A stretch of 60,985 bases of DNA from a virus: positions 1 through 60,985 of the IMG/VR virus record IMGVR_UViG_3300025941_000026; one strand, 5' to 3'. A program made the translations under genes and the position numbers. The notes beneath the pieces were generated by a model. That model saw nothing but the letters and a program-made list of their open reading frames with translations, was not told the origin of the DNA and searched no databases. Below are positions 7,992-57,688 of this stretch, in pieces. Every line of letters starts with the position of its first letter. Position 1 is the stretch's first letter.

Positions 7992-8287
7992 AGCGTCACC
8001 TCGCCAATCGTATAGTGCGAAGGCGCGCCGTCAGCATGGACGAACATATGCACCTCGATGAGCTTGGCGCTTGGGGCCAGGAGATCGTTTGATACGAGGA
8101 AAGTGCGCTTGTACCCTGGCAGCATGTCCACCGCGCGTTTAGGCCAGGCCGTCGTCATGATATCCCCCGCCGGCTCGCCGAGGATACGCTGCGCCTCGTC
8201 AATCCCTTCACCTAAGGTTTTGTACTGCTTGGGGCTTGGGTTGGCGTGCTGGCCGATGAGCCAGTCAGTAACATTGAGCTTAGCCAT
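7988..8287 (-). CDS. Hypothetical protein (99 aa)
   Basis: Not recognised. It starts MAKLNVTDWLIGQHANPSPKQ at 8285-8287, with GGAGGAATATAAGG upstream; longer in-frame starts lack an SD. The second half is strand-rich (KRTFLVSNDLL, AKLIEVHMFVHAD, SHYTIGEVTL), suggesting a small alpha+beta domain. The W-L-I-G-Q start helix recalls the LEGW family only loosely. Confidence 0.6.
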   Translation of the reverse strand: MAKLNVTDWLIGQHANPSPKQYKTLGEGIDEAQRILGEPAGDIMTTAWPKRAVDMLPGYKRTFLVSNDLLAPSAKLIEVHMFVHADGAPSHYTIGEVTL

Positions 8288-8630
8288 CCTTATATTCCTC
8301 CATCCCATTAACAATACAGCCATCACCAGTCCACTCAATCGTGGCCTTCGGCCCGAATCGCTCGATAACTGCCTCAGCCCACAGCTTGTCCCCTTCGGCC
8401 CACAGCTTGCCCCCTTCGGCGTACAGCTTGTCCCGTTCGGCGTACAGCTTGTCCCCTTCGGCCCACAGCTTGCCCCCTTCGGCGTACAGCTTGCGCCCTT
8501 CGGCGCGCAGCTTGCTCCCTTCGGCGCGCAGCTTGTCCCCTTCGGCGCGCAGCTTGCCCCGTTCCAACCATTCTGGAAGGAGGGATTGGTTATTCAGTAG
8601 GCCGTGGTTGCGGAGTTGGTCAGCATTCAT
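8280..8630 (-). CDS. Heptapeptide-repeat protein with family-like N-terminus (116 aa)
   Basis: Starts MNADQLRNHGLLNN, reminiscent of the family's x-EQ-x-x-x-x-L pattern, then switches at residue 24 to nine uninterrupted heptads of the form G-x-K-L-(R/Y/W)-A-E up to residue 86. The end is a short non-repeat domain (AVIERFGPKATIEWTGDG). The repeats correspond to a 21-bp tandem repeat. Only residue positions 3 and 5 of each heptad vary in a limited way. Leu and Ala are two residues apart, which does not fit an ordinary coiled coil. Function unknown. Confidence 0.7.
   Translation of the reverse strand: MNADQLRNHGLLNNQSLLPEWLERGKLRAEGDKLRAEGSKLRAEGRKLYAEGGKLWAEGDKLYAERDKLYAEGGKLWAEGDKLWAEAVIERFGPKATIEWTGDGCIVNGMEEYKDG
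8373..8561. repeat. Nine 21-bp tandem repeats
   Basis: Within the gene at 8280-8630, each unit encodes G-x-K-L-x-A-E. Differences between units fall in the second and fifth codons, giving Arg, Tyr or Trp and Asp, Ser, Arg or Gly. Such arrays expand and contract readily, so the number may vary between isolates. Confidence 0.85.
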
Positions 8631-9656: not shown

Positions 9657-10259
9657 TCAGTTCCCATACAGTAAATCACTGGTGAATTCCTCGTGAAGCT
9701 TGCTGGCATCCTCCGGCCGCATATTGCGCTCTTTGATTACCAGCTGCACACCCTCGCGTTTAGCCCATTCGAGATAGCTCAGGCTACCTCTTTCGGATAC
9801 CTGGCCGGTGGCGTATAAGCGATTCATGACGGCATGATACATGTGGTCGACCTGGCCTTTCTTAGCGTGCCTGTTCGTGCAATTGGTTAGGGTGAACCCT
9901 TCACCCTCTCGTTCTATCTTAGCGAATCCCCATCGGCACGGCGCGCCTGTACCCAGGTCACGTTTACCGCTCTCGTACACCTTGGCCGTGAATACTATGT
10001 CCTTTTGGGGCAGCTTACGCATGGACATTTGGTTGGGGCGACCAGTTGTCGCGTAGCGCTGGCATCCGCACGAATTGGTACGGCCAGCCTTAAGGTTATC
10101 AGCGCGTATCTTTTTGGTATTACCGCAGTCGCACAAGCATAGCCAATATGGCGACCGTCGTTCATCCTGTCCGTCCTTATGTAGTAACGTGAGGTTACCT
10201 ATCCTGTCACCAGCGCACAGCGTTTTAGTACCCTTAGTTTTATTCTCGATGCCTACCAT
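9657..10259 (-). CDS. Zinc-motif protein resembling AP2/HNH homing endonuclease N-domains (200 aa)
   Basis: Residues 18-66 have the pattern G(D/E)R(I/F)GxLT(L/V), YWLCLCDCG, a basic loop (KKIRADNLKAGRT) and CGC, the Cys-rich unit often found at the front of phage HNH or AP2-type endonucleases. The expected HNH or AP2 catalytic part is not obvious in the rest, so it may be a DNA-binding derivative. The palindrome at 10024-10050 lies inside and encodes TTGRPNQ just after the Cys unit. It is the first gene behind the TAGGAGCA-controlled promoter, and so may be a regulator. Start at 10259 chosen for its SD-like GAAAGGG. Confidence 0.5.
   Translation of the reverse strand: MVGIENKTKGTKTLCAGDRIGNLTLLHKDGQDERRSPYWLCLCDCGNTKKIRADNLKAGRTNSCGCQRYATTGRPNQMSMRKLPQKDIVFTAKVYESGKRDLGTGAPCRWGFAKIEREGEGFTLTNCTNRHAKKGQVDHMYHAVMNRLYATGQVSERGSLSYLEWAKREGVQLVIKERNMRPEDASKLHEEFTSDLLYGN
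10024..10050. repeat. 27-bp palindrome, copy 4 (inside a gene)
   Basis: Arms GACATTTGGTTG and CGACCAGTTGTC, within 9657-10259. It is translated in the same frame as copy 7 (TTGRPNQ here, TTGRSDQ there). Confidence 0.7.
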
Positions 10260-10280
10260 ACTCGCCCTTTCCACTAAACC

Positions 10281-10292
10281 TTGTAGGAGCAA
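10281..10292. promoter_or_regulatory. TAGGAGCA operator-like site 1
   Basis: TTGTAGGAGCAA, the exact inverted partner of site 3 at 10327-10338. It lies in the predicted mRNA leader of 9657-10259. Confidence 0.5.
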
Positions 10293-10316
10293 CTTAGTCA
10301 CAATTGATAGGTATCC

Positions 10317-10328
10317 GTGCTCCTACTT
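10317..10328. promoter_or_regulatory. TAGGAGCA operator-like site 2
   Basis: GTGCTCCTACTT, the exact inverted partner of site 4 at 10364-10375. It lies about at the predicted transcription start. Confidence 0.5.
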
Positions 10329-10338
10329 GCTCCTACAA
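10327..10338. promoter_or_regulatory. TAGGAGCA operator-like site 3
   Basis: TTGCTCCTACAA, two bases overlapping site 2 and two bases overlapping the -10 box. Confidence 0.5.
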
Positions 10339-10365
10339 TATAGCGCCTGTTTTTCCAAAAATCAA
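10337..10365 (-). promoter_or_regulatory. Sigma70-like promoter TTGATT-17-TATATT
   Basis: Minus strand: -35 TTGATT at 10360-10365, 17-base spacer, -10 TATATT at 10337-10342. Four 12-bp sites containing TAGGAGCA flank or overlap it, one on the -35, one on the -10, one near +1 and one in the leader. This is the layout of a repressible early promoter. Confidence 0.6.
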
Positions 10366-10375
10366 GTAGGAGCAC
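10364..10375. promoter_or_regulatory. TAGGAGCA operator-like site 4
   Basis: AAGTAGGAGCAC, overlapping the -35 of the promoter at 10337-10365. Confidence 0.5.
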
Positions 10376-10561
10376 GCATTTCGATGTACGTATGACATCT
10401 TTTTCGTTTAACTATCGGAAGTGAAATGCACGTGGATAGGATGGAATAGAACCAAAAAGCGCAGATAAGCAGTCTCATTCTTACCACAACTAGAATCTGG
10501 TGGGAGTATTTCACCATGCTGCCATAGAGGAGTTACCCCTGTTTGTATCTATTTGTTTAGT

Positions 10562-10570
10562 AATAAGCAG
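10562..10570. repeat. CTGCTTATT iteron (inverted)
   Basis: AATAAGCAG, reverse complement of the iteron. A degenerate neighbour TAAGCAG follows at 10573-10579, and ATAAGCAG occurs at 10465-10472. Confidence 0.4.
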
Positions 10571-10607
10571 ACTAAGCAGGGTTTTTACGATAGGTGCTCG
10601 AAATTCA

Positions 10608-10681
10608 GGTTGATCGTGTAGGTAGTAGCATGTAAGTATTTAGGAGCTTTTGGTGCAGTGCCACTACCTACACGATCAACC
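10608..10681. repeat. Perfect 19-bp inverted repeat with 36-base loop
   Basis: Arms at 10608-10626 and 10663-10681 are exact reverse complements over 19 bases; the arm begins GGTTGATCGTG. As RNA or single-stranded DNA this would form a very stable hairpin with a 36-base loop. No T-tract follows on either strand, so it is not an ordinary terminator. It could be an origin structure, a recombination or packaging site, or the stem of a small RNA. Confidence 0.8.
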
Positions 10682-10718
10682 CAAAATACGGGAACCTTCA
10701 CCATAAATTGCGTTTTAC

Positions 10719-10727
10719 CTGCTTATT
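10719..10727. repeat. CTGCTTATT iteron
   Basis: Exact copy in direct orientation, followed by an AT-rich tract (ATAAAAAAC). Confidence 0.4.
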
Positions 10728-10824
10728 ATAAAAAACTTAGCAACACATGGTGCATATGCCCTTAAGAATCATGCACTTGCCCGCACGCTGCCGCTGGATA
10801 GTTACAGCAAACCCGCTTATTGCC

Positions 10825-10833
10825 CTGCTTATT
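10825..10833. repeat. CTGCTTATT iteron
   Basis: Exact copy; a near-copy CCGCTTATT is 12 bases upstream (10813-10821), giving a tandem pair. Confidence 0.4.
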
Positions 10834-10886
10834 CGCACCCATGCCTGCCACGCACAAACCACGATAGTTACAGACTAAATAGACAC

Positions 10887-10913
10887 GACATTTGGTTGCT
10901 GCAACCACTTGTC
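10887..10913. repeat. 27-bp palindrome, copy 5
   Basis: Arms GACATTTGGTTG and CAACCACTTGTC, the most symmetrical copy, in the non-coding control region between two CTGCTTATT iterons. Confidence 0.7.
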
Positions 10914-10960
10914 ATAGGCAGGTGCAACTATCCCCTTGGCCTAATACATACAATTGCAAC

Positions 10961-10969
10961 CTGCTTATT
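10961..10969. repeat. CTGCTTATT iteron
   Basis: Exact copy, the rightmost of the set, 48 bases from palindrome copy 5. Confidence 0.4.
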
Positions 10970-11070
10970 TGGGCATTGTCTTACGTACAATTTTCACTCT
11001 CGCCAAAAAATAGTCGCAGTAACAAAAAGACAAGTCCGTTTTACCCCAATGAGAATAAACAAATAGAAAC

Positions 11071-11088
11071 AGGGGCCGCGAGGCCCCT
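11071..11088 (-). terminator. Terminator-like hairpin after 11177-11911
   Basis: AGGGGCC-GCGA-GGCCCCT, an almost uninterrupted GC stem. On the minus strand it is followed by GTTTCTATTTGTTT, a moderately U-rich tail, so it probably ends transcripts of 11939-12034 and 11177-11911. It could also act on plus-strand transcripts (TTAGTTT follows there). Confidence 0.6.
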
Positions 11089-11097
11089 TTAGTTTCA

Positions 11098-11160
11098 TTA
11101 GAAGTTTTCATCATCCGCGAGGGATTGGGCCATATCAGGCCATGGGTTCGGGTCGGTCAT
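11098..11160 (-). CDS. Possible 20-residue peptide
   Basis: MTDPNPWPDMAQSLADDENF, acidic, directly downstream of 11177-11911 and just before the terminator. Only a weak AGGT stands upstream. Position and acid-rich sequence make it plausible, but it could be chance. Confidence 0.3.
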   Translation of the reverse strand: MTDPNPWPDMAQSLADDENF

Positions 11161-11176
11161 GACGTTCTACCTGGCG

Positions 11177-11911
11177 TTAGGCTTGTGCGTACTTCTCTGC
11201 GGCGAGTTGCTTGGAAGTCTTGCCGGTCTTGGCCGACTCCAGCGCTGCCTTGATCGCGGCTTGTGGATCGTACTTGCTGGCAACAGCTTGTAGCGCTACG
11301 GCATCCAGCTTGGATTCGGTCTTGGCTGCCAGGATGCGCGCAGTAGCCTGTAACACTTTGGCAAGACCGTGCTTAGCAATGAACTGTTCAATCTTGTCCG
11401 CCTCGCTGTCAACGCGTTCGGTGGTCTGGCCTTTGGGTGCGCCTACCTTGCCAGCGGCTTTGTCGGCCGCTTCACGCTCAGCGCGTTTAGCGATAGCAGC
11501 AGGGCTATCCGATTCTGGCAAAGAACCATACAGTTCGATGAGGGCAGCGTTATATGGCTTGCGCACCCATTGATCGTCAACAAGCCCCTTTTGTTCAGCC
11601 AGGATGCGCAACGCTGCACGGTCATCCTTGAACTGCTTATAGGTTGGCGCAGTGCTGCCGTACTGATCCAGCAGCATGCGGCGCATGATAGCGCGCTGGC
11701 CCTCAACAGCTTTGTTGATGCCCTCTGCTGCCTTGAAGATCGCGGCGAACAGGTCTTGCTGCCAAGGCGTGATGGCAATGGTGCCTTTGCCCAGTGGCGC
11801 GATGAGGTCAGGCCGGGCTTGCTTGGCTGCCTTGTCAACTTGTGGCTGGGTGAAGAATGCTTTGATTTCTGCGGTCACGGATTCGACGGACATTTCTTTA
11901 GCTGCGGTCAT
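11177..11911 (-). CDS. Hypothetical early protein, helical (244 aa)
   Basis: Not recognised. A largely helical, Ala/Lys-rich protein (MTAAKEMSVESVTAEIKAFF at the start). A middle segment (AIMRRMLLDQYGSTAPTYKQFKDD) is amphipathic, a basic-acidic linker occupies 140-170, and the end is Lys/Ala-rich (SKQLAAEKYAQA). It is the second gene behind the strong promoter at 12078-12083 and has the shared leader, so it should be made early and in quantity. This suggests a host-takeover or DNA-associated protein, but nothing in it proves that. Confidence 0.65.
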   Translation of the reverse strand: MTAAKEMSVESVTAEIKAFFTQPQVDKAAKQARPDLIAPLGKGTIAITPWQQDLFAAIFKAAEGINKAVEGQRAIMRRMLLDQYGSTAPTYKQFKDDRAALRILAEQKGLVDDQWVRKPYNAALIELYGSLPESDSPAAIAKRAEREAADKAAGKVGAPKGQTTERVDSEADKIEQFIAKHGLAKVLQATARILAAKTESKLDAVALQAVASKYDPQAAIKAALESAKTGKTSKQLAAEKYAQA

Positions 11912-12596: not shown

Positions 12597-13004
12597 ATGA
12601 GCAACGATATCGCGTTCCCAACCATGGACCCTTCGCAGCTGGGCTTCCCGCCTACACTGCCGATCGAGCTCGCCCTGCGCATGGGCACCCCGAAAGAAAT
12701 TTGTGCAGCGTATAATATTTCCCACGAGGAATTTGCGCAGATCGCCAAGCACCCGCTGTTCATCAAGGCATATGCCGAGGCTGTCGAGGCGCTGAAGACC
12801 GACGGAATGAGCTTCAAAATGAAGGCCAAGATGCAAGCCGAGGACTACTTGGCCACCGCCTACGCCATGATCAAGAACCCCAACACGAGCGACGCCGTGC
12901 GCGCGGACCTGGTGAAAGCGACTGTACGCTGGGCGGGCTATGATGCCAAAGAGTCCACAGCCGGAAATGGTAATAATTTCGCAATACAGATCAACCTGGG
13001 CTAA
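12597..13004 (+). CDS. terS: Terminase small subunit (135 aa)
   Basis: A small helical protein immediately upstream of the packaging genes. A helix-turn-helix-like segment occupies residues 30-58 (MGTPKEICAAYNISHEEFAQI), which fits DNA recognition by small terminases, and a helical region with KMKAKMQAEDYLATAYAM follows for oligomerisation. It would select phage DNA for the large subunit at 13996-15423. No SD is visible before the ATG; see the promoter at 12581-12589. Confidence 0.75.
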   Translation: MSNDIAFPTMDPSQLGFPPTLPIELALRMGTPKEICAAYNISHEEFAQIAKHPLFIKAYAEAVEALKTDGMSFKMKAKMQAEDYLATAYAMIKNPNTSDAVRADLVKATVRWAGYDAKESTAGNGNNFAIQINLG

Positions 13005-17772: not shown

Positions 17773-18702
17773 ATGACTACCCCGACCACACCAGAAGTTG
17801 ATGAGTTCGCAGCAGCATTTGCGGATCTGAATTCTCCTGCGCCAAAGGCAGAAACTCCGCCAGCCGATCCTCCGGTCGAGACGCCGCTAGCTGATACGCC
17901 TCCTGCAGAAACCCCGCCGGCCGATCCTCCTGTCGAGACGCCGCCAGCTGATACGCCTCCTGCAGAAACCCCGCCGGCCGATCCTCCTGTCGAGACGCCG
18001 CCAGTTGACACCCCTCCTGCCGCTGAGACCGAGGAGCAGATGCGCGCTCGTATCCGCGCTGAACTGGAAGCTGAACTGAAACCTAAAGCCGCTGCCCCGA
18101 AAGCAGATACTTCGCCAGCAGACCCTCCTGCCGCCCCTGCGGCGCCGGTGAAAATTTACACCGAGGAGGAAGACAAGATCCTGGAGAAGTACAAGAATGA
18201 CTGGCCGGACATTGCTGCTGCCGAGCAGCTGGCCCGCCGGGCAGACAGCTACCGTGTGGTGGAGCACATTTTCACTCAGTTGCGCCCGATCCTTAATGAA
18301 CTGCAGGAGCGCGTCGGCGCCCATAGCAAGCGTTCGATGTATGACGACCTCATTGATCTGGTGCCGGACTATGATGATGTGCGCGACAAGACCCTGGAAT
18401 GGATCGAAACCCAGCCGGATTACCTGAAAACAGCTTATCAGCAAGTGGCTAACGAGGGCACGCCCGACCAGGTTGCTGATCTGATCAACCGGTTCAAGCG
18501 CGAGACGGGCTATCAAACCGCGGCGCATGCCGCAAAACCTGCTGCACCTGCCGCTCCTGTGACCGCGCCAGCAGTAGCCCCAGCAGTTGCCAAGGCTGCA
18601 GCTGCGCTGAAACCTGTTACCACAACCCGTTCCGAACCGAAGACTGATGTCGAGGATAAGAACGATTTCGACTCTGCATTTGCAGAATTTTCTAAAGTGT
18701 AA
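17773..18702 (+). CDS. Putative scaffolding protein (309 aa)
   Basis: Lies between portal and major capsid, the usual place of the scaffold, and has the usual make-up: low complexity, highly charged and helical. Residues 20-85 are Pro/Glu/Asp repeats (PPADPPVETPP, 19-residue unit repeated three times), 85-110 a charged helix, 125-255 a folded helical core (YTEEEDKILEKYKNDW, RSMYDDLIDLVPDYDD), 255-285 an Ala/Pro linker, and the end a short acidic segment (DFDSAFAEFSKV) like capsid-binding tails. No sequence match is claimed. Confidence 0.6.
   Translation: MTTPTTPEVDEFAAAFADLNSPAPKAETPPADPPVETPLADTPPAETPPADPPVETPPADTPPAETPPADPPVETPPVDTPPAAETEEQMRARIRAELEAELKPKAAAPKADTSPADPPAAPAAPVKIYTEEEDKILEKYKNDWPDIAAAEQLARRADSYRVVEHIFTQLRPILNELQERVGAHSKRSMYDDLIDLVPDYDDVRDKTLEWIETQPDYLKTAYQQVANEGTPDQVADLINRFKRETGYQTAAHAAKPAAPAAPVTAPAVAPAVAKAAAALKPVTTTRSEPKTDVEDKNDFDSAFAEFSKV
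17851..18021. repeat. Three 57-bp tandem repeats in the scaffold gene
   Basis: Units of 57 bp beginning GAAACYCCGCC encode the Pro-rich 19-residue repeat. Units two and three are nearly identical, unit one slightly diverged. Confidence 0.85.
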
Positions 18703-37864: not shown

Positions 37865-38911
37865 ATGGCGTTCGGCCACTCGACAATCAGTGCGGCGCCA
37901 CTGGCATCCCCCGCGGATGCCATTATCGTTAATCCGACCACTACCAGCCAAGCTACCAGTGCCAGCGCAGCGGTAACGATAAGCACCCCCACGACCGTAT
38001 CCACTAGCCAAGTTACCAGTGCAACCGGTACAACTGGTGAATCCGTAGTATCCACCAGTCAGGTAACCAGCGCATCCGCTACTGCGATTGTCAGTACGCC
38101 GACAACGGTATCCACCAGCCAGGTAACCAGCGCATCCGCCACTGCAACTGTCAGTACGCCGACAACGGTATCCACCAGCCAGGTAACCAGCGCCGCGGCT
38201 ACGGCTACGATTAGCGTCACTGCGACTGTATCTACCAGCCAGGTAACCAGCGCCGCGGCTACCAACATAACGACAGACATAACCACCAATCAGGTTACTA
38301 GCGCTACAGCTACTGCCGGCGTTAGCATGGACGCCACAGTGACCACAAACCAGGTCACAACCGCGGCATCCGCCGTCAATATCAGCATGGGCTCCACAAT
38401 TGGAGCATCGATAATTACGTCGGCCACTGCTACCGCAGTTATAAGCTCGGATCTCGTTGGCTCCGCGAGCCAAGTCACGGCTGAAATGGGTTCCCTCGGG
38501 AATCTGTTACTGGTAGCTGTAACTGAGAACCAGGTCACCACCGCAAGTTCCACGGCCGGCATCAGCATGAACTCCACGGTGACTGCGAACCAGGTCACCA
38601 GTGCCAACGCGGCTGCGGCGCCAATTACGTCCGCCAGTGCTTCCGGTTCCATGACCACCGCCATGACCGGGCAACTTGTTGTCAGTACCCCGCTTACTGC
38701 GCTGTTGAGCCAAGTGATGGGGTCGACTGGCGCGCTGGCGAAGCAAGGATCGTCGATTAGGACGCATGCGAAATGGCAGGTGGAGGCAATAACGGACCGC
38801 AGCCGCTGGAATTCGTTGTCGGCCGCAGATGAAGACCAGGTATTTGCATCCCAGGAGCCACAGCAGATACTGGCTATACACGCCGAGGATGATATCCTCG
38901 TAACTACTTAA
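37865..38911 (+). CDS. Ser/Thr/Val repeat protein, probable fibre (348 aa)
   Basis: Residues 10-270 are repeats built on (V/T)STSQVTSA(S/A)ATA, 20 residues in the best-kept stretch (residues 45-140, 60-bp DNA repeats with starts at 38048, 38108, 38168 and 38228). The C-terminal 60 residues are unlike the repeats (THAKWQVEAITDRSRWN, DEDQVFASQEPQQ). A rod-like, beta-stranded extension with a small end domain is likely. Compare 24770-25939. Confidence 0.55.
   Translation: MAFGHSTISAAPLASPADAIIVNPTTTSQATSASAAVTISTPTTVSTSQVTSATGTTGESVVSTSQVTSASATAIVSTPTTVSTSQVTSASATATVSTPTTVSTSQVTSAAATATISVTATVSTSQVTSAAATNITTDITTNQVTSATATAGVSMDATVTTNQVTTAASAVNISMGSTIGASIITSATATAVISSDLVGSASQVTAEMGSLGNLLLVAVTENQVTTASSTAGISMNSTVTANQVTSANAAAAPITSASASGSMTTAMTGQLVVSTPLTALLSQVMGSTGALAKQGSSIRTHAKWQVEAITDRSRWNSLSAADEDQVFASQEPQQILAIHAEDDILVTT
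38048..38287. repeat. 60-bp tandem repeats in the fibre gene
   Basis: Four successive 60-bp units starting GTATCYACCAG at 38048, 38108, 38168 and 38228; more degenerate units extend on both sides. They encode VSTSQVTSA and neighbours. Confidence 0.75.
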
Positions 38912-42149: not shown

Positions 42150-42632
42150 ATGGACTTGGGACTTTTGAAAATCCTGGCGGCCGGCATCGTCATCGCCGGT
42201 CTTGTAGCGGCGTGCCACGAGCGAGATAATCGGCTGATTCAGAAGGGCGTAGACAGCCAGATTGCACTGGAGGCCGCGCAGAAGGAGAAAGATAAGGTGC
42301 TGGCCGAGAAGAAGGATGCTGACCAGGCGGCGGCGCTACGTAAGATCGACGAGCAACGAGTTAAGGAGAACAAGGAACATGAAAAAACTATTGCGCAGCT
42401 GCAGCGCGATGTGCGTTCTGGCGCTGAGCGCCTGCGCATCGCAACCGTACACCAGCCCAGTAAAACCCCGGCTGACCCCACTGCCGGCCGAGTTGAGCCA
42501 GAAGAAGGATCAGTCGTTGTGCCAGAAGTTGCTTCAGATATTCTCGGCATCGCCGCCGGTATTGGGCAAAACGTGCGGGACTACAACGACCTCCTCGATG
42601 CCTACCACGCATTAGAACTACGCTGCCAGTGA
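42150..42632 (+). CDS. Rz: Inner-membrane spanin, Rz-like (160 aa)
   Basis: N-terminal transmembrane helix (residues 4-21, LKILAAGIVIAGLVAACH), then a long coiled coil (AAQKEKDKVLAEKKDADQAA, EHEKTIAQLQRDVRSGAERL). It is the classic i-spanin layout; it would join with the lipoprotein encoded inside it to fuse inner and outer membranes at lysis. The 3' end overlaps the last codons of the convergent gene 42618-43106. Confidence 0.85.
   Translation: MDLGLLKILAAGIVIAGLVAACHERDNRLIQKGVDSQIALEAAQKEKDKVLAEKKDADQAAALRKIDEQRVKENKEHEKTIAQLQRDVRSGAERLRIATVHQPSKTPADPTAGRVEPEEGSVVVPEVASDILGIAAGIGQNVRDYNDLLDAYHALELRCQ
42379..42615 (+). CDS. Rz1: Outer-membrane spanin lipoprotein, Rz1-like, embedded in Rz (78 aa)
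   Basis: Lies entirely within Rz in the +1 frame. MKKLLRSCSAMCVLALSAC has a positive start, hydrophobic core and lipobox LSAC with Cys19 as lipid site; the rest is Pro/Ser-rich (YTSPVKPRLTPLPAELSQ), as Rz1 proteins are. An AAGGAG sequence is nine bases upstream of its ATG. Confidence 0.85.
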   Translation: MKKLLRSCSAMCVLALSACASQPYTSPVKPRLTPLPAELSQKKDQSLCQKLLQIFSASPPVLGKTCGTTTTSSMPTTH

Positions 42633-43106
42633 ATAGATAAGAGTAGTCCCACCTACCTGGGTAATGCGATCGCATACCCGGACCTTACCTGCAGCGCATA
42701 GCAGCTGCAGGTTAAATTGCACCGCCGCGCGGGTGTAGAATACTTTGGCCATTACGTCCTGTACTGTCATTGGCCCGGTCAAGGCGCCTAAAATCTTGGC
42801 AGGAAGCAGCGGCCTATCGTGCTTCCTGCTTTTTCGTAATGGGCCTTCGCTCTTGCCTGGGCCTGGATAGAAGCGCCGGACCTTGACGCCCGCAACTCCT
42901 ACGGTATGATCCCCGACATGAGCATCCCCAACTACCAGCATGACCTGGCATGCCTGCGTAATTCGCGCCGCGGAGTAAGGCAATGCTTCCGCCAGTTCGT
43001 GGATAGTCATTGGCCGGACAGCCAAGGATGCAAGGATATCCTTATACATCCGGGATTTCAGGCTGTCCGGTTTTTCGCCCCACGCTTTGAACGTGTCACG
43101 TGGCAT
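42618..43106 (-). CDS. Tandem winged-helix protein (162 aa)
   Basis: Two winged-helix-like units: residues 20-62 (DILASLAVRPMTIHELAEAL and AARITQACQVMLVV) and 102-150 (KILGALTGPMTVQDVMAKVF, AAVQFNLQLLCAAGKVRV). The linker is basic (GKSEGPLRKSRKHDR). A duplicated DNA-binding domain suggests a transcription regulator of the phage. It is last in the leftward arm, converging on Rz with a 15-base overlap. Confidence 0.6.
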   Translation of the reverse strand: MPRDTFKAWGEKPDSLKSRMYKDILASLAVRPMTIHELAEALPYSAARITQACQVMLVVGDAHVGDHTVGVAGVKVRRFYPGPGKSEGPLRKSRKHDRPLLPAKILGALTGPMTVQDVMAKVFYTRAAVQFNLQLLCAAGKVRVCDRITQVGGTTLIYSLAA

Positions 43107-43305: not shown

Positions 43306-46242
43306 TTATGCGGCCTTACCCTTTTTGATGCTCACCACTTTGGCCGATTCGAGTGGTTGGGGTGGAACGGCCGGCGACGGAACGCCGAGTTTTTCAGCAT
43401 CGATTTCCCAACAGCGAGTTTGGCCTTTGGCGTAGGCGGTATCGGCGCCCAGTACCTTCTGCTTGGCGCGGCTGACGATAACCCCCATGCCTTCGAGCGT
43501 CTGCTCCATGCGGCGGAACGGCATCTTGTGCTCCCCGCAGAAGTCCAGAATCGCCTGGCGGGCGATGTAGATACGATCAGCGTCCATTTCATGGCGGATA
43601 AGCAGCGCGTGGTATGGCTTGACCACTGTGCAGTCCAGGTTCGAGGAGTTCTTGGCGGAGACCACCAAGGTGTTGCCGATATGGGTCTCGAGGAATTCCA
43701 CCAACACATCCAGCGGATCGGACACGGTATCTTGGATCGTCTCGCGTTGGCCGGAGAGGTGGGCCACCATCCATTTGAGATCTTCCTCGATAGGGTAGTC
43801 CAGCAGTCCCAGAGATTTGGCGATCTGTGCCCCAGTGTAGGCTGCAGCAATGGCGGCTGACCAATAGCGCTCCGCGGAAGCATCCCGGGAATTGAGGAGA
43901 CGGTCGACCATCGCTACGTTCTTGATATACCCCTTCGCCACCTTCTCGTAATTCTGTACGACAAACTTCATCATCAGCGGACCAGCATGGCCATAATTCT
44001 GGTTCAGCGAACGTAGGAAGTTATCCGCCTCTATCTTCGCCTCAGGGCTGGCATTAACCAGGCTGAATGGTACGCCGATCATACGCATCAGGTGCGGGCT
44101 CACATCGCGGCCGGAGGACAGGATACGGCTGATGTCATCGGTGTTAGCCGATGCCAGAACGATGGTCTCCCAGGTCACGGTCTTGCCCACGTGTTCGGAA
44201 CCCTTCATGCGATCCTTGCCGCGACCCTGGCTGATGTTCAGCAGGAAACGGCGAATCTCCTCTGGGTCGCGTTCGGTGATCTCATCCCACATAAACGGCA
44301 GGGAATGGTAGCAACCCAGGGTTTCGTATAGCGCGTTGATGGTTGACCCTTCGCGGTTACCGTTCAGGATCAGGTTCTCCGGCCGGCCCCACAGGGAAGC
44401 ACAGGCTTTCAACGCCGTAGTCTTACCGCGACCGGATTCGCCCGATGCCGTGATCAACACACCCTTGTTGCCGGTGTCATTCATATGGAACAACGGGGCG
44501 CCCAGCGCGGCGTAGATAAAGAACCGGGTGCCCTCGTAACCTGGCTTGTTGTAGAAGGCCATGGCGTCTTTCCACCCCTGTGCGCTGCCGGCCGCCGTTA
44601 CACCGTCTTTCGTTACCGCGCGCACCGTCTTGGATGGGTTGACCTGGCGCATCTTGCCGTCGGCACCAATGACCTTGTTCCCCAGCACGAAGGACTTCCG
44701 ATCGTCGTGCCAGCCCAGCCTTTCGTACAGCTTGTCACGGTCGGCTGCTTCCGCGAGGCTTTGTAGGTAGAAGCTCATATAGCGTTGTGTTGACTTGGCG
44801 TTATCATCGGTCATGTACACCCCTTTCTGCATTAGGTAGGCGTACAGCTTGCGGTGGTCAGAGATCAGGGACTGGGGCACTTCCATATCAGTAGGGCCAA
44901 GGCGCGGCAGATGCGCGCGCCACATGGACCGTTCTTCAACCAGGATATCTAGCCCGGACTGGCGCATAATGCGGATCGGGTACAGGTCGTAGGGGCAGAC
45001 ATCTACGAATGCCAGTACGCCGTCATCATCCGCCTCAGTTTCCTGCACAATCTTACCGCCCTTCAGATGATAACCCTGTGGCCGTGGCGCGATGAAAATC
45101 TCCTCGGCTTCGCCCAGGTCATTCAGCAGCTGGATCGGCGCCATCGGCGTAGGAGCATCACTACGGTCACGCCCTAGGAGGATAGGCGATTTTATTTGGC
45201 CGCGATGAGGGCAGCCTTGGCAGCCTTCAGGGTTTTCCGTTTCGAAGCTGACGCATGTAGCTGGGCCAGTATGCCAGCCGTCGACCTTTTGGAGAGTGGC
45301 CGCCCAAGAGTATCCATCGTGGCCTTCGGACAGAGCGCGATAAGCTTTCTCCGCGCTGTCGCAGAATTTGGCAACGCCCAATGCGGAACGCCATAGGACC
45401 TCACCCGTACCCTTTCCAAGTACCGCGACTTGCGCCGCAAGCTGTCCGCAGTGATAGACGATACGGTCGAAGTTTCCCGGATCATTGGTGGCTCCGAGGT
45501 TGTCTTCGAAATAGGCGTTGGCCGACAATGCGCCGCCGCAATTTTGTATAGCACTAGAACGCACAGTACAGCCGATATCATCGCCATACTGATCGAGAAT
45601 TCCCGCGATGTCGGAGAATTGGTAAGGTCCACCGCCTCGTGTAACCAATACCACTGGAGCCATACGGCGGATGTTAAAGCCACCAAGGCAACGCAATACT
45701 CGCGCCTGGTCAGAAGTGAGAGATCGATCAGCTTTAAATTCTTCATGAATGCAAATCGCTTTCAGTTTGTCGGCTACCGGACGCCAGGTCACCGTATCCA
45801 CCGCTGCGAACAATGGCCAGTAGGCATGGATACCGCCCCCGCTGTCGACGATCATTGGTGGGGGCAGTCCTACTTTGGATACGAAGGCTTTCAGCTGGAC
45901 GAGGGCGTCGGCTTTGGAGTTGAATTTTTTGGGGTCTTCCGGATCCACGTCGAGATCGAGGAAGAATGTTTTGATGTACTGCGCATTAGCCTGAGTACGG
46001 AAGCGCCACTTACCTTCACCGTTGTTCGCCGAATGGTCCCATACTTTATCCTCTGCGAAGGTGGCCGTGGCAAAATACGCCGGCTGCCCAGCGAATGTGA
46101 TCCAGTTCACCCGGGCAACAGCTTGAGGGATACTCTGATATTGCCGGTTATCCCATCCCCCGCTGGGGATGGGCGAAGCGATGCATATGATACCGGTACT
46201 GGGCAGCAGCAACTCAAGAAATTCTTGTGCGTTCATGGGCAT
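43306..46242 (-). CDS. Primase-helicase: PrimPol-like domain fused to DUF927-type ATPase (978 aa)
   Basis: Residues 1-260 look like an archaeo-eukaryotic primase/PrimPol: the metal site FFLDLDVDPED (93-103), SGGGIHAYW (134-142) and a third acidic part in LTSDQARVLRC. A Cys/His cluster (CQGCPHRG) follows near 345. The rest is a DUF927-type helicase with Walker A ASGESGRGKTTALK near 590, Walker B FMWDEITERD, and RILSSGRDVSPHLMRMIGV. This one protein would make primers and unwind DNA at the fork, paired with the family A polymerase at 55171-57072. Confidence 0.8.
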   Translation of the reverse strand: MPMNAQEFLELLLPSTGIICIASPIPSGGWDNRQYQSIPQAVARVNWITFAGQPAYFATATFAEDKVWDHSANNGEGKWRFRTQANAQYIKTFFLDLDVDPEDPKKFNSKADALVQLKAFVSKVGLPPPMIVDSGGGIHAYWPLFAAVDTVTWRPVADKLKAICIHEEFKADRSLTSDQARVLRCLGGFNIRRMAPVVLVTRGGGPYQFSDIAGILDQYGDDIGCTVRSSAIQNCGGALSANAYFEDNLGATNDPGNFDRIVYHCGQLAAQVAVLGKGTGEVLWRSALGVAKFCDSAEKAYRALSEGHDGYSWAATLQKVDGWHTGPATCVSFETENPEGCQGCPHRGQIKSPILLGRDRSDAPTPMAPIQLLNDLGEAEEIFIAPRPQGYHLKGGKIVQETEADDDGVLAFVDVCPYDLYPIRIMRQSGLDILVEERSMWRAHLPRLGPTDMEVPQSLISDHRKLYAYLMQKGVYMTDDNAKSTQRYMSFYLQSLAEAADRDKLYERLGWHDDRKSFVLGNKVIGADGKMRQVNPSKTVRAVTKDGVTAAGSAQGWKDAMAFYNKPGYEGTRFFIYAALGAPLFHMNDTGNKGVLITASGESGRGKTTALKACASLWGRPENLILNGNREGSTINALYETLGCYHSLPFMWDEITERDPEEIRRFLLNISQGRGKDRMKGSEHVGKTVTWETIVLASANTDDISRILSSGRDVSPHLMRMIGVPFSLVNASPEAKIEADNFLRSLNQNYGHAGPLMMKFVVQNYEKVAKGYIKNVAMVDRLLNSRDASAERYWSAAIAAAYTGAQIAKSLGLLDYPIEEDLKWMVAHLSGQRETIQDTVSDPLDVLVEFLETHIGNTLVVSAKNSSNLDCTVVKPYHALLIRHEMDADRIYIARQAILDFCGEHKMPFRRMEQTLEGMGVIVSRAKQKVLGADTAYAKGQTRCWEIDAEKLGVPSPAVPPQPLESAKVVSIKKGKAA

Positions 46243-46254
46243 GCCCGGTGGAGG

Positions 46255-46602
46255 TTAAGCGGCTTGGCGGGCTACATGATGTTTTTTCACCAACTGCGCG
46301 AAAGTCTTGACGCGGGCGGTAGTCGTACCTTCCAGCGGCAAATCCTTCTCTTTCTTCATGCGGCGCATCAGTACCAGGAAATTCTTCAGCTTCACTACCT
46401 TGTCCGGATCGCGCGGGGTCGACTCGCCGTACATCCAGCGGTAGATAGTCGGTTCGGACACGGACAGGATGGCAGCTGCGGCCTCCACTGGCACATTGCC
46501 TTTGATCAGCATGACGCCCAGGGTTGGGCCAAGGGCGTTCTTATCCGCCTCGATGGCGGCGTGCATGGCGTTCATTTTGTCTTGGGTAATAATGCGTCCC
46601 AT
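46255..46602 (-). CDS. HTH protein (115 aa)
   Basis: Residues 36-62 (VEAAAAILSVSEPTIYRWMYG) form a helix-turn-helix followed by STPRDPDKVVKLKNFLVLMR; a helical basic tail ends the chain. It could be a transcriptional regulator or replication initiator, and is a candidate to bind the TAGGAGCA sites or the 27-bp palindromes. Twelve bases upstream of the primase-helicase gene, so probably co-expressed. Confidence 0.65.
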   Translation of the reverse strand: MGRIITQDKMNAMHAAIEADKNALGPTLGVMLIKGNVPVEAAAAILSVSEPTIYRWMYGESTPRDPDKVVKLKNFLVLMRRMKKEKDLPLEGTTTARVKTFAQLVKKHHVARQAA

Positions 46603-57072: not shown

Positions 57073-57353
57073 CAGGGTCGCTCCTCACGTTGCTCTCTGT
57101 CCGCGAGAATAGACTTGTATAATTGGTACAGTGGGTGTAAGCCTAATTCTTCAAATCGAGCTGGAATCCGGTTTTCGCAATAGACGTAGTCTACGTACCG
57201 GTCCCATGTATCGGGTTTATCCATATACCGCTGCAGTTCATCTTCCCCATCCCGCGCTGCCCATACGTAGCTACCTTCCGCACCAATAATGGGGGCTTTA
57301 TTTAAAACTACGCCTTCCAGCGTCAGCCAAGCGATCATCTGTTCACGGTTCAT
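57069..57353 (-). CDS. LEGW-family small protein (94 aa)
   Basis: Begins MNREQMIAWLTLEGVV: the signature up to LEG is exact but Trp is replaced by Val. Middle: KAPIIGAEGSYVWAARDG, YMDKPDTWDRYVDYVYCE. End: LYQLYKSILADREQREE. It starts at the stop of the winged-helix gene and leads into the polymerase gene. Function unknown. Confidence 0.75.
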   Translation of the reverse strand: MNREQMIAWLTLEGVVLNKAPIIGAEGSYVWAARDGEDELQRYMDKPDTWDRYVDYVYCENRIPARFEELGLHPLYQLYKSILADREQREERPW

Positions 57354-57688
57354 AATTCCCTCCGCAATCCTTCGAAAAATACTTCAGCGTGCCCGTCACC
57401 TAAGCGGTCGGCCGAACCCCAGCCACGCCACAGGTCTTGCATAATTGCATGTTGCGGCCGCGCGGAATCATCGGCAAAAACTTTGGCGGCGTAGGACCAG
57501 CCGCGCGAATTGCGCTTGCGCCAGAAGTCAGGGAACTTTTCATCCCCGAGCATATACCTCAGGGAGTTCGCCAGTTCCAAAGGTTCGACGCCCAGCTGGT
57601 TAGCGATCTCTGTAGGCTTTAACGGGCGCGGCGCAGCTTTCAAGACTTCGTAGATCTTCTGGCGCAGATGGGGGGTGTGAGGTTTCAT
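57350..57688 (-). CDS. Winged-helix protein (112 aa)
   Basis: Residues 9-55 form a winged helix: KIYEVLKAAPRPLKPTEIAN, then LELANSLRYMLGDEKFPDFW with SRGWSYAAK as wing. It could regulate early genes or the polymerase operon. C-terminal part is less defined. Overlaps by four bases at both ends. Confidence 0.6.
   Translation of the reverse strand: MKPHTPHLRQKIYEVLKAAPRPLKPTEIANQLGVEPLELANSLRYMLGDEKFPDFWRKRNSRGWSYAAKVFADDSARPQHAIMQDLWRGWGSADRLGDGHAEVFFEGLRREL

Follow-up and report, generated by a model that had tools for sequence, protein, structure and literature searches.

In iteron plasmids, inverted cores lie over the promoter of the Rep gene and further copies of the core are found in the adjoining AT-rich region. 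Many plasmid Rep proteins bind the cores of the origin as well as the same cores in their own promoter and thereby limit themselves. I-TevI of phage T4 represses its own gene from an operator that lies over its own promoter (PMC2988022). In the PLE satellites, the DNA-binding domain of RepA has been swapped together with the origin repeats (PMC8263062), and Cluster A mycobacteriophages carry repressor sites that are specific to each phage (PMC6550527). Here we analyzed a promoter surrounded by repeated sites in a viral DNA of 60,985 bases (IMG/VR record IMGVR_UViG_3300025941_000026); this whole stretch is called the window. The features of the locus and the corresponding repeats of related phages are listed in Table 1.

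Table 1. Features at the repeat locus of the window, and repeats at the equivalent promoter in related phages
Feature	Positions	Strand	Description
Gene 9657-10259	9657-10259	-	200-aa protein with N-terminal four-cysteine domain; encoded at the locus in 15 of 15 phages
Site 1, TTGTAGGAGCAA	10281-10292	+	Core 10283-10291 (+); in gene leader, before ATG at 10259; inverted partner, site 3
Site 2, AAGTAGGAGCAC	10317-10328	-	Core 10318-10326 (-); shortly past predicted transcription start; inverted partner, site 4
Site 3, TTGTAGGAGCAA	10327-10338	-	Core 10328-10336 (-); abuts -10 box and spans predicted transcription start
Site 4, AAGTAGGAGCAC	10364-10375	+	Core 10366-10374 (+); abuts -35 box on its upstream edge
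Sigma70-like promoter, TTGATT-17-TATATT	10337-10365	-	TTGATT 10365-10360, 17 bp, TATATT 10342-10337; reads into 9657-10259
AT-rich noncoding region	10260-11176		917 bp between 9657-10259 (-) and 11177-11911 (-); no convincing genes
Long inverted repeat IR2	10608-10681		19-bp perfect arms, 36-nt spacer; equaled in 0 of 100 shuffles
Promoter repeat, L007			ATGTAGGGGA
Promoter repeat, L017 and L020			AGGATG repeats at 10-11 bp spacing
Promoter repeat, L028			GTAGTCAGT, in promoter spacer
Promoter repeat, L024			TGTAGTGAGT
Promoter repeat, L031			GAGCCTGTAGC, in promoter spacer
Promoter repeat, L019			GGTGTGAGT, in promoter spacer
Promoter repeat, L022			TGAAGAGGCG, before -35, in spacer and after -10
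Promoter repeat, L030			GTAGGC, weak

The 9-bp core GTAGGAGCA occurs four times within 95 bp, and its only other copy in the window is at 45149, within the primase gene. This clustering is beyond chance: no other 9-mer of the window reaches four copies per 95 bp, with the exception of a coding 21-bp tandem repeat at 8380-8564. As the original prediction had stated, the cores are part of four 12-bp sites made of two exact inverted pairs; the pair formed by sites 2 and 4 extends to 14 perfect pairs, and sites 2 and 3 are direct repeats 10 bp apart. The claim that these sites surround a sigma70-like promoter also held, with one refinement: the 12-mers of sites 3 and 4 each overlap a promoter box by 2 bp, whereas the 9-bp cores merely abut the boxes, core 4 at the -35 box and core 3 at the downstream edge of the -10 box. 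Repeated sites that overlap or abut the promoter are the arrangement of an autoregulated operator-promoter. An exact 22-mer search of viral contigs gave zero copies. The 21-bp tandem repeat lies in ORF 8280-8630 (-), in which 8.8 units encode a 7-residue protein repeat; tandem repeats are also present in plus-strand ORFs of the structural region, with a 57-bp unit at 17848-18020 and a 60-bp unit at 38048-38193.

For comparison, 15 phages (window included) were gathered by protein searches for a shared gene order: the zinc-domain gene (-), a noncoding region, a homologue of 11177-11911 (-), a homologue of 12597-13004 (+), and TerL. The 11177 homologue was not detected in some of the 15 same-order phages. 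No DNA similarity of the window to phage records was found, and a TerL search of plasmid records returned distant matches only. A TerL alignment scan of genome contigs found no relatives, and there is therefore no host or prophage context. Named phages with a related TerL (Rollin and Rhizobium phages) were not useful, as the layout around TerL differs.

The promoter score by itself is not significant (3 matches vs 3.3 expected in the 3.1 kb scanned). At the equivalent place, relative L007 carries TTGATT-17-TATCAT; GTAGGGGA comes immediately after it and is repeated in inverted orientation in the leader. Window and L007 can be aligned without a gap from the -35 box through the leader site, and the longest conserved blocks are the promoter boxes, the leader site and a GTAGG core. 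Between the two phages the spacer and the letters of the core differ, while the promoter, the leader site and the -10 core are in the same positions. Counterparts of sites 1 and 3 are present in L007; the second inverted pair (sites 2 and 4) has none there. The sigma70 likeness summed over the 15 upstream regions of the gene was 126, compared to 96.5 ± 9.2 for shuffled sequences, and none of 500 shuffles reached this value. Conservation in L007, together with the joint score of the 15 upstream regions above that of the shuffles, makes the promoter convincing.

In approximately 10 of the 15 phages, the promoter of the 9657-10259 gene carries a repeat private to the phage, either on it or next to it, some of these private cores having been picked by eye from repeat lists; a clear promoter-proximal core is absent in the other five (L008, L026, L032, L051, and L053). 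In whole-record scans, the copies of the private core found at the locus were 4 of 4 for L028, 5 of 5 for L031, 4 of 5 for L024, and 4 of 5 for the window. Judged by these sequence comparisons, the letters of the repeat are replaced between phages while the layout at the promoter persists. According to the original prediction, a lack of conservation of the repeats among relatives that share the gene order would speak against it; this applies to the letters and not to the architecture, since a new sequence has taken the place of the old one in an unchanged layout. L017 and L020, whose N-terminal domains are 85% identical, share the same core; the covariation of protein and core is carried by this one close pair and vanishes without it (Mantel r 0.08, p 0.34).

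Repeats of other types were also encountered in these phages. The equivalent noncoding region of L026 (4785-4890) contains TAGTTGCA/AACTATGC motifs with a 27-bp period, and L030 and L031 have repeated short hairpins (GGACAAACGGAG...CTCCGTTTGTCC and GGACATTCCGG...CCGGAATGTCC) in several intergenic places. The more distant L037 (3513-4274), L038 (347-699), and L043 (3476-4167) carry arrays of other inverted repeats, belonging to a GTATACG family and a CATTACCCA family, about 6-9 kb upstream of TerL.

The N-terminal domain of the 9657-10259 product is common to phage proteins labelled HNH endonuclease, AP2 protein, or transcription factor, the AP2 label coming solely from names of viral predicted structures. 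The match to phrog_374 covers only residues 7-74, aligned to positions 189-257 of 617. No HNH or other nuclease domain was detected in Pfam or NCBIfam searches of this protein, and no replication-initiator or Rep family was matched. A match to the Lsr2 C-terminal domain profile was too weak (E 0.19). In a PDB fold search with the whole protein, the only rows obtained were weak, RNase-H-like and limited to the C-terminal part (Foldseek best E 0.035, VIA Z ≤4.7); the best hit of the N-terminal domain alone among solved structures was Tudor-like and not significant (E 0.21). Between window and L007 the product is 35-36% identical, compared to 89% for TerL, 74% for g11177, and 72% for g12597 (overall range of the neighbours, 71-89%), and it therefore diverges faster than its neighbours.

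In our judgment the four sites are probably operators for the product of the adjoining gene 9657-10259, which would regulate itself negatively. The cores abut both promoter boxes, and the gene adjoins the sites in all 15 phages. Of the four products named as possible binders in the original prediction, this one fits best, and the auto-regulated early regulator suggested there is the best-supported reading, with the private repeat found at the promoter of this same gene in most of the phages. Taking as directly observed the sites, the conserved promoter and its position, the restriction of the cores to the locus, the conservation of the adjoining gene, and the replacement of sites between relatives, we propose that the zinc/HNH-associated domain at the N terminus of the protein would bind the asymmetric core at the promoter and in the leader of the gene that encodes it. 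Binding would exclude RNA polymerase and therefore hold down the protein level. The related cores in the upstream inverted repeat, ~350 bp away, are probably bound as well, which may strengthen repression by looping or serve a second function.

The long perfect arms of IR2, however, exceed the need of an operator, and the region around it has properties of its own. Its G+C content is 44%, compared to 56% for the whole record, and in four of six genomes (the window and three of five relatives) no other 900-bp stretch is as rich in AT as the noncoding region; there is no second long noncoding region of such kind. Within it, ATAAGCAG is present in five copies and ATAGTTRCA in three, the latter found nowhere else in the window, though relatives carry some copies of ATAGTTRCA outside the region. 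ATAGTTRCA and AAAAAGCAG flank IR2 in most relatives and are unchanged between phages. The repeat density of the region is not outstanding genome-wide, where coding repeats dominate. Repeats of the IR2 type are located about 320-540 bp upstream of the gene, the L028 copy being further away than those of the window, L007, L017, L020, and L053. Their perfect arms measure 19 bp in the window, 18 in L007, 23 in L017, 11 in L020, 25 in L028, and 15 in L053, and each beats 100 shuffles. GTAG is found in all 11 long arms listed vs 0.56 expected by chance, a count that is somewhat selected because the L019 and L022 cores lack GTAG. An Rfam search with the IR2 hairpin matched mir-277 only, below threshold, and was judged to be chance.

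An AT-rich noncoding region with repeats that adjoins the gene of the candidate binder is also what an iteron origin would look like. The region 10260-11176 might be a replication origin and the zinc-domain protein an initiator that binds the IR2 cores, with the cores at its own promoter being self-limiting; we consider this unlikely, though a live alternative, and it would contain the operator function in a secondary role. In its favour are the AT-richness and singularity of the region, the conserved motifs flanking IR2, the recurrence of the private core in the IR2 equivalent of L007, L020, L028, and L019, and the precedent of the PLE satellites, in which RepA DNA-binding domain and origin repeats change together (PMC8263062). 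The detrended GC-skew minimum of the window is at 11,047, and two of five relatives also have theirs in this region; it lies elsewhere in three of the six genomes, and in the window it coincides with the gene-direction switch. Further points against an origin are the lack of similarity of the 9657-10259 product to replication initiators, the primase-helicase encoded 33 kb away, and the IR2 of the window itself, which holds imperfect cores only (GTAGTAGCA at 10622-10630, and TTTAGGAGC in the spacer). If the region is nevertheless an origin, upstream binding may be the main job of the protein. The locus could then be a modular replicon with a private code, in which the zinc/HNH-associated protein is both initiator and self-repressor and the recognition sequence is swapped between phages with the origin-promoter layout kept; this too we regard as unlikely. 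Such swapping perhaps avoids interference from co-infecting phages or satellites.

It is quite improbable that the cores are bound as operators by another regulator, be it the product of some other phage gene or a host protein. A point in favour is 46255-46602, a small conserved HTH protein beside the primase that 8 of 10 relatives also encode. The sequence of its recognition helix, TIYRWMYG, hardly varies, whereas the cores differ completely, and it is therefore an unlikely reader of a changing core. Based on this helix it more likely reads something unchanging. The motifs ATAGTTRCA or AAAAAGCAG, which do not change, might be read by it. The remaining two products proposed earlier, 42618-43106 (MarR-like) and 57350-57688, have no homologue in ten relatives by a search that may miss very diverged ones, and for a host regulator a different site in each phage is not expected.

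We also considered whether the repeats act as RNA, with stems in the leader controlling translation or decay of the mRNA. RNA folding predicts a stable stem of sites 1 and 3 (z -4.1) and a very stable IR2 hairpin (z about -6 to -7), and the arms change together between relatives. Nonetheless, site 4 is upstream of the promoter, and in L022, L031, L019, and L028 the core precedes the -35 box or lies within the spacer of the promoter, where it would not be transcribed; a reading by RNA alone fails for these reasons. The predicted start inside site 3 would also cut the 12-bp stem, and we judge this explanation very unlikely.

A remnant of a lysogeny switch, the other possibility raised in the original prediction, is scarcely credible: the architecture is maintained and not decaying, the cluster has no second promoter-like site and hence no divergent pair as in lambdoid phages, and the searches of the window and of seven other relatives yielded no recombinase. 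The absence of an integrase noted earlier was borne out by searches with PF00589 (tyrosine integrase) and PF00239 (serine recombinase), neither of which matched in the window, a record that may be incomplete. Recombinase genes do occur in the records of L024 and L026 (tyrosine type) and L031 (serine type), so that some phages of the group may be temperate. The window does not match a lambdoid switch or a stoperator system, because there is no recombinase, no divergent pair, and no genome-wide sites; four of the five core copies are at one place, compared to the many genome-spread sites of stoperators.

If the autoregulated operator reading is true, the locus would provide a compact DNA-binding protein under its own control, with a target that changes quickly and is easy to read off, from a family mostly labelled 'HNH endonuclease' or unknown in databases. 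The proteins and sites of the different phages would then form a natural series of pairs from which DNA reading by this zinc-domain family could be learned, and the locus would be a testable example of a regulatory or replication code that phages alter with the layout held constant.

The locus resembles iteron plasmids in having inverted cores at a promoter and copies in the AT-rich region next door, but differs from them in that the protein has no Rep-family similarity and the further copies are in a long inverted repeat, not in a direct-repeat array. With I-TevI it would share a homing-endonuclease-related DNA-binding protein with a zinc element that binds an operator overlapping the protein's own promoter (PMC2988022). 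I-TevI is encoded in an intron, is an active GIY-YIG nuclease and has a single operator, whereas the present locus lacks an intron, its protein has no detected nuclease domain, and the inverted and direct copies are several and vary in sequence between phages. As in the PLE replicon, noncoding repeats would vary with the DNA-binding domain of one protein in a constant layout, although the covariation here comes from one phage pair; replication role and binding have been shown for PLE, while the present protein is a candidate only, and one without RepA similarity. Like the Cluster A stoperators, the sites are asymmetric and phage-specific, the phage protein predicted to read them diverges, and there is a site at the gene of the repressor, here a predicted one; those stoperators number up to about 30 genome-wide, whereas the present core is restricted to a single locus and the window carries no sign of lysogeny. 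On the tests made, the locus is a member of none of the I-TevI, PLE, and Cluster A systems and shares traits with each of them.
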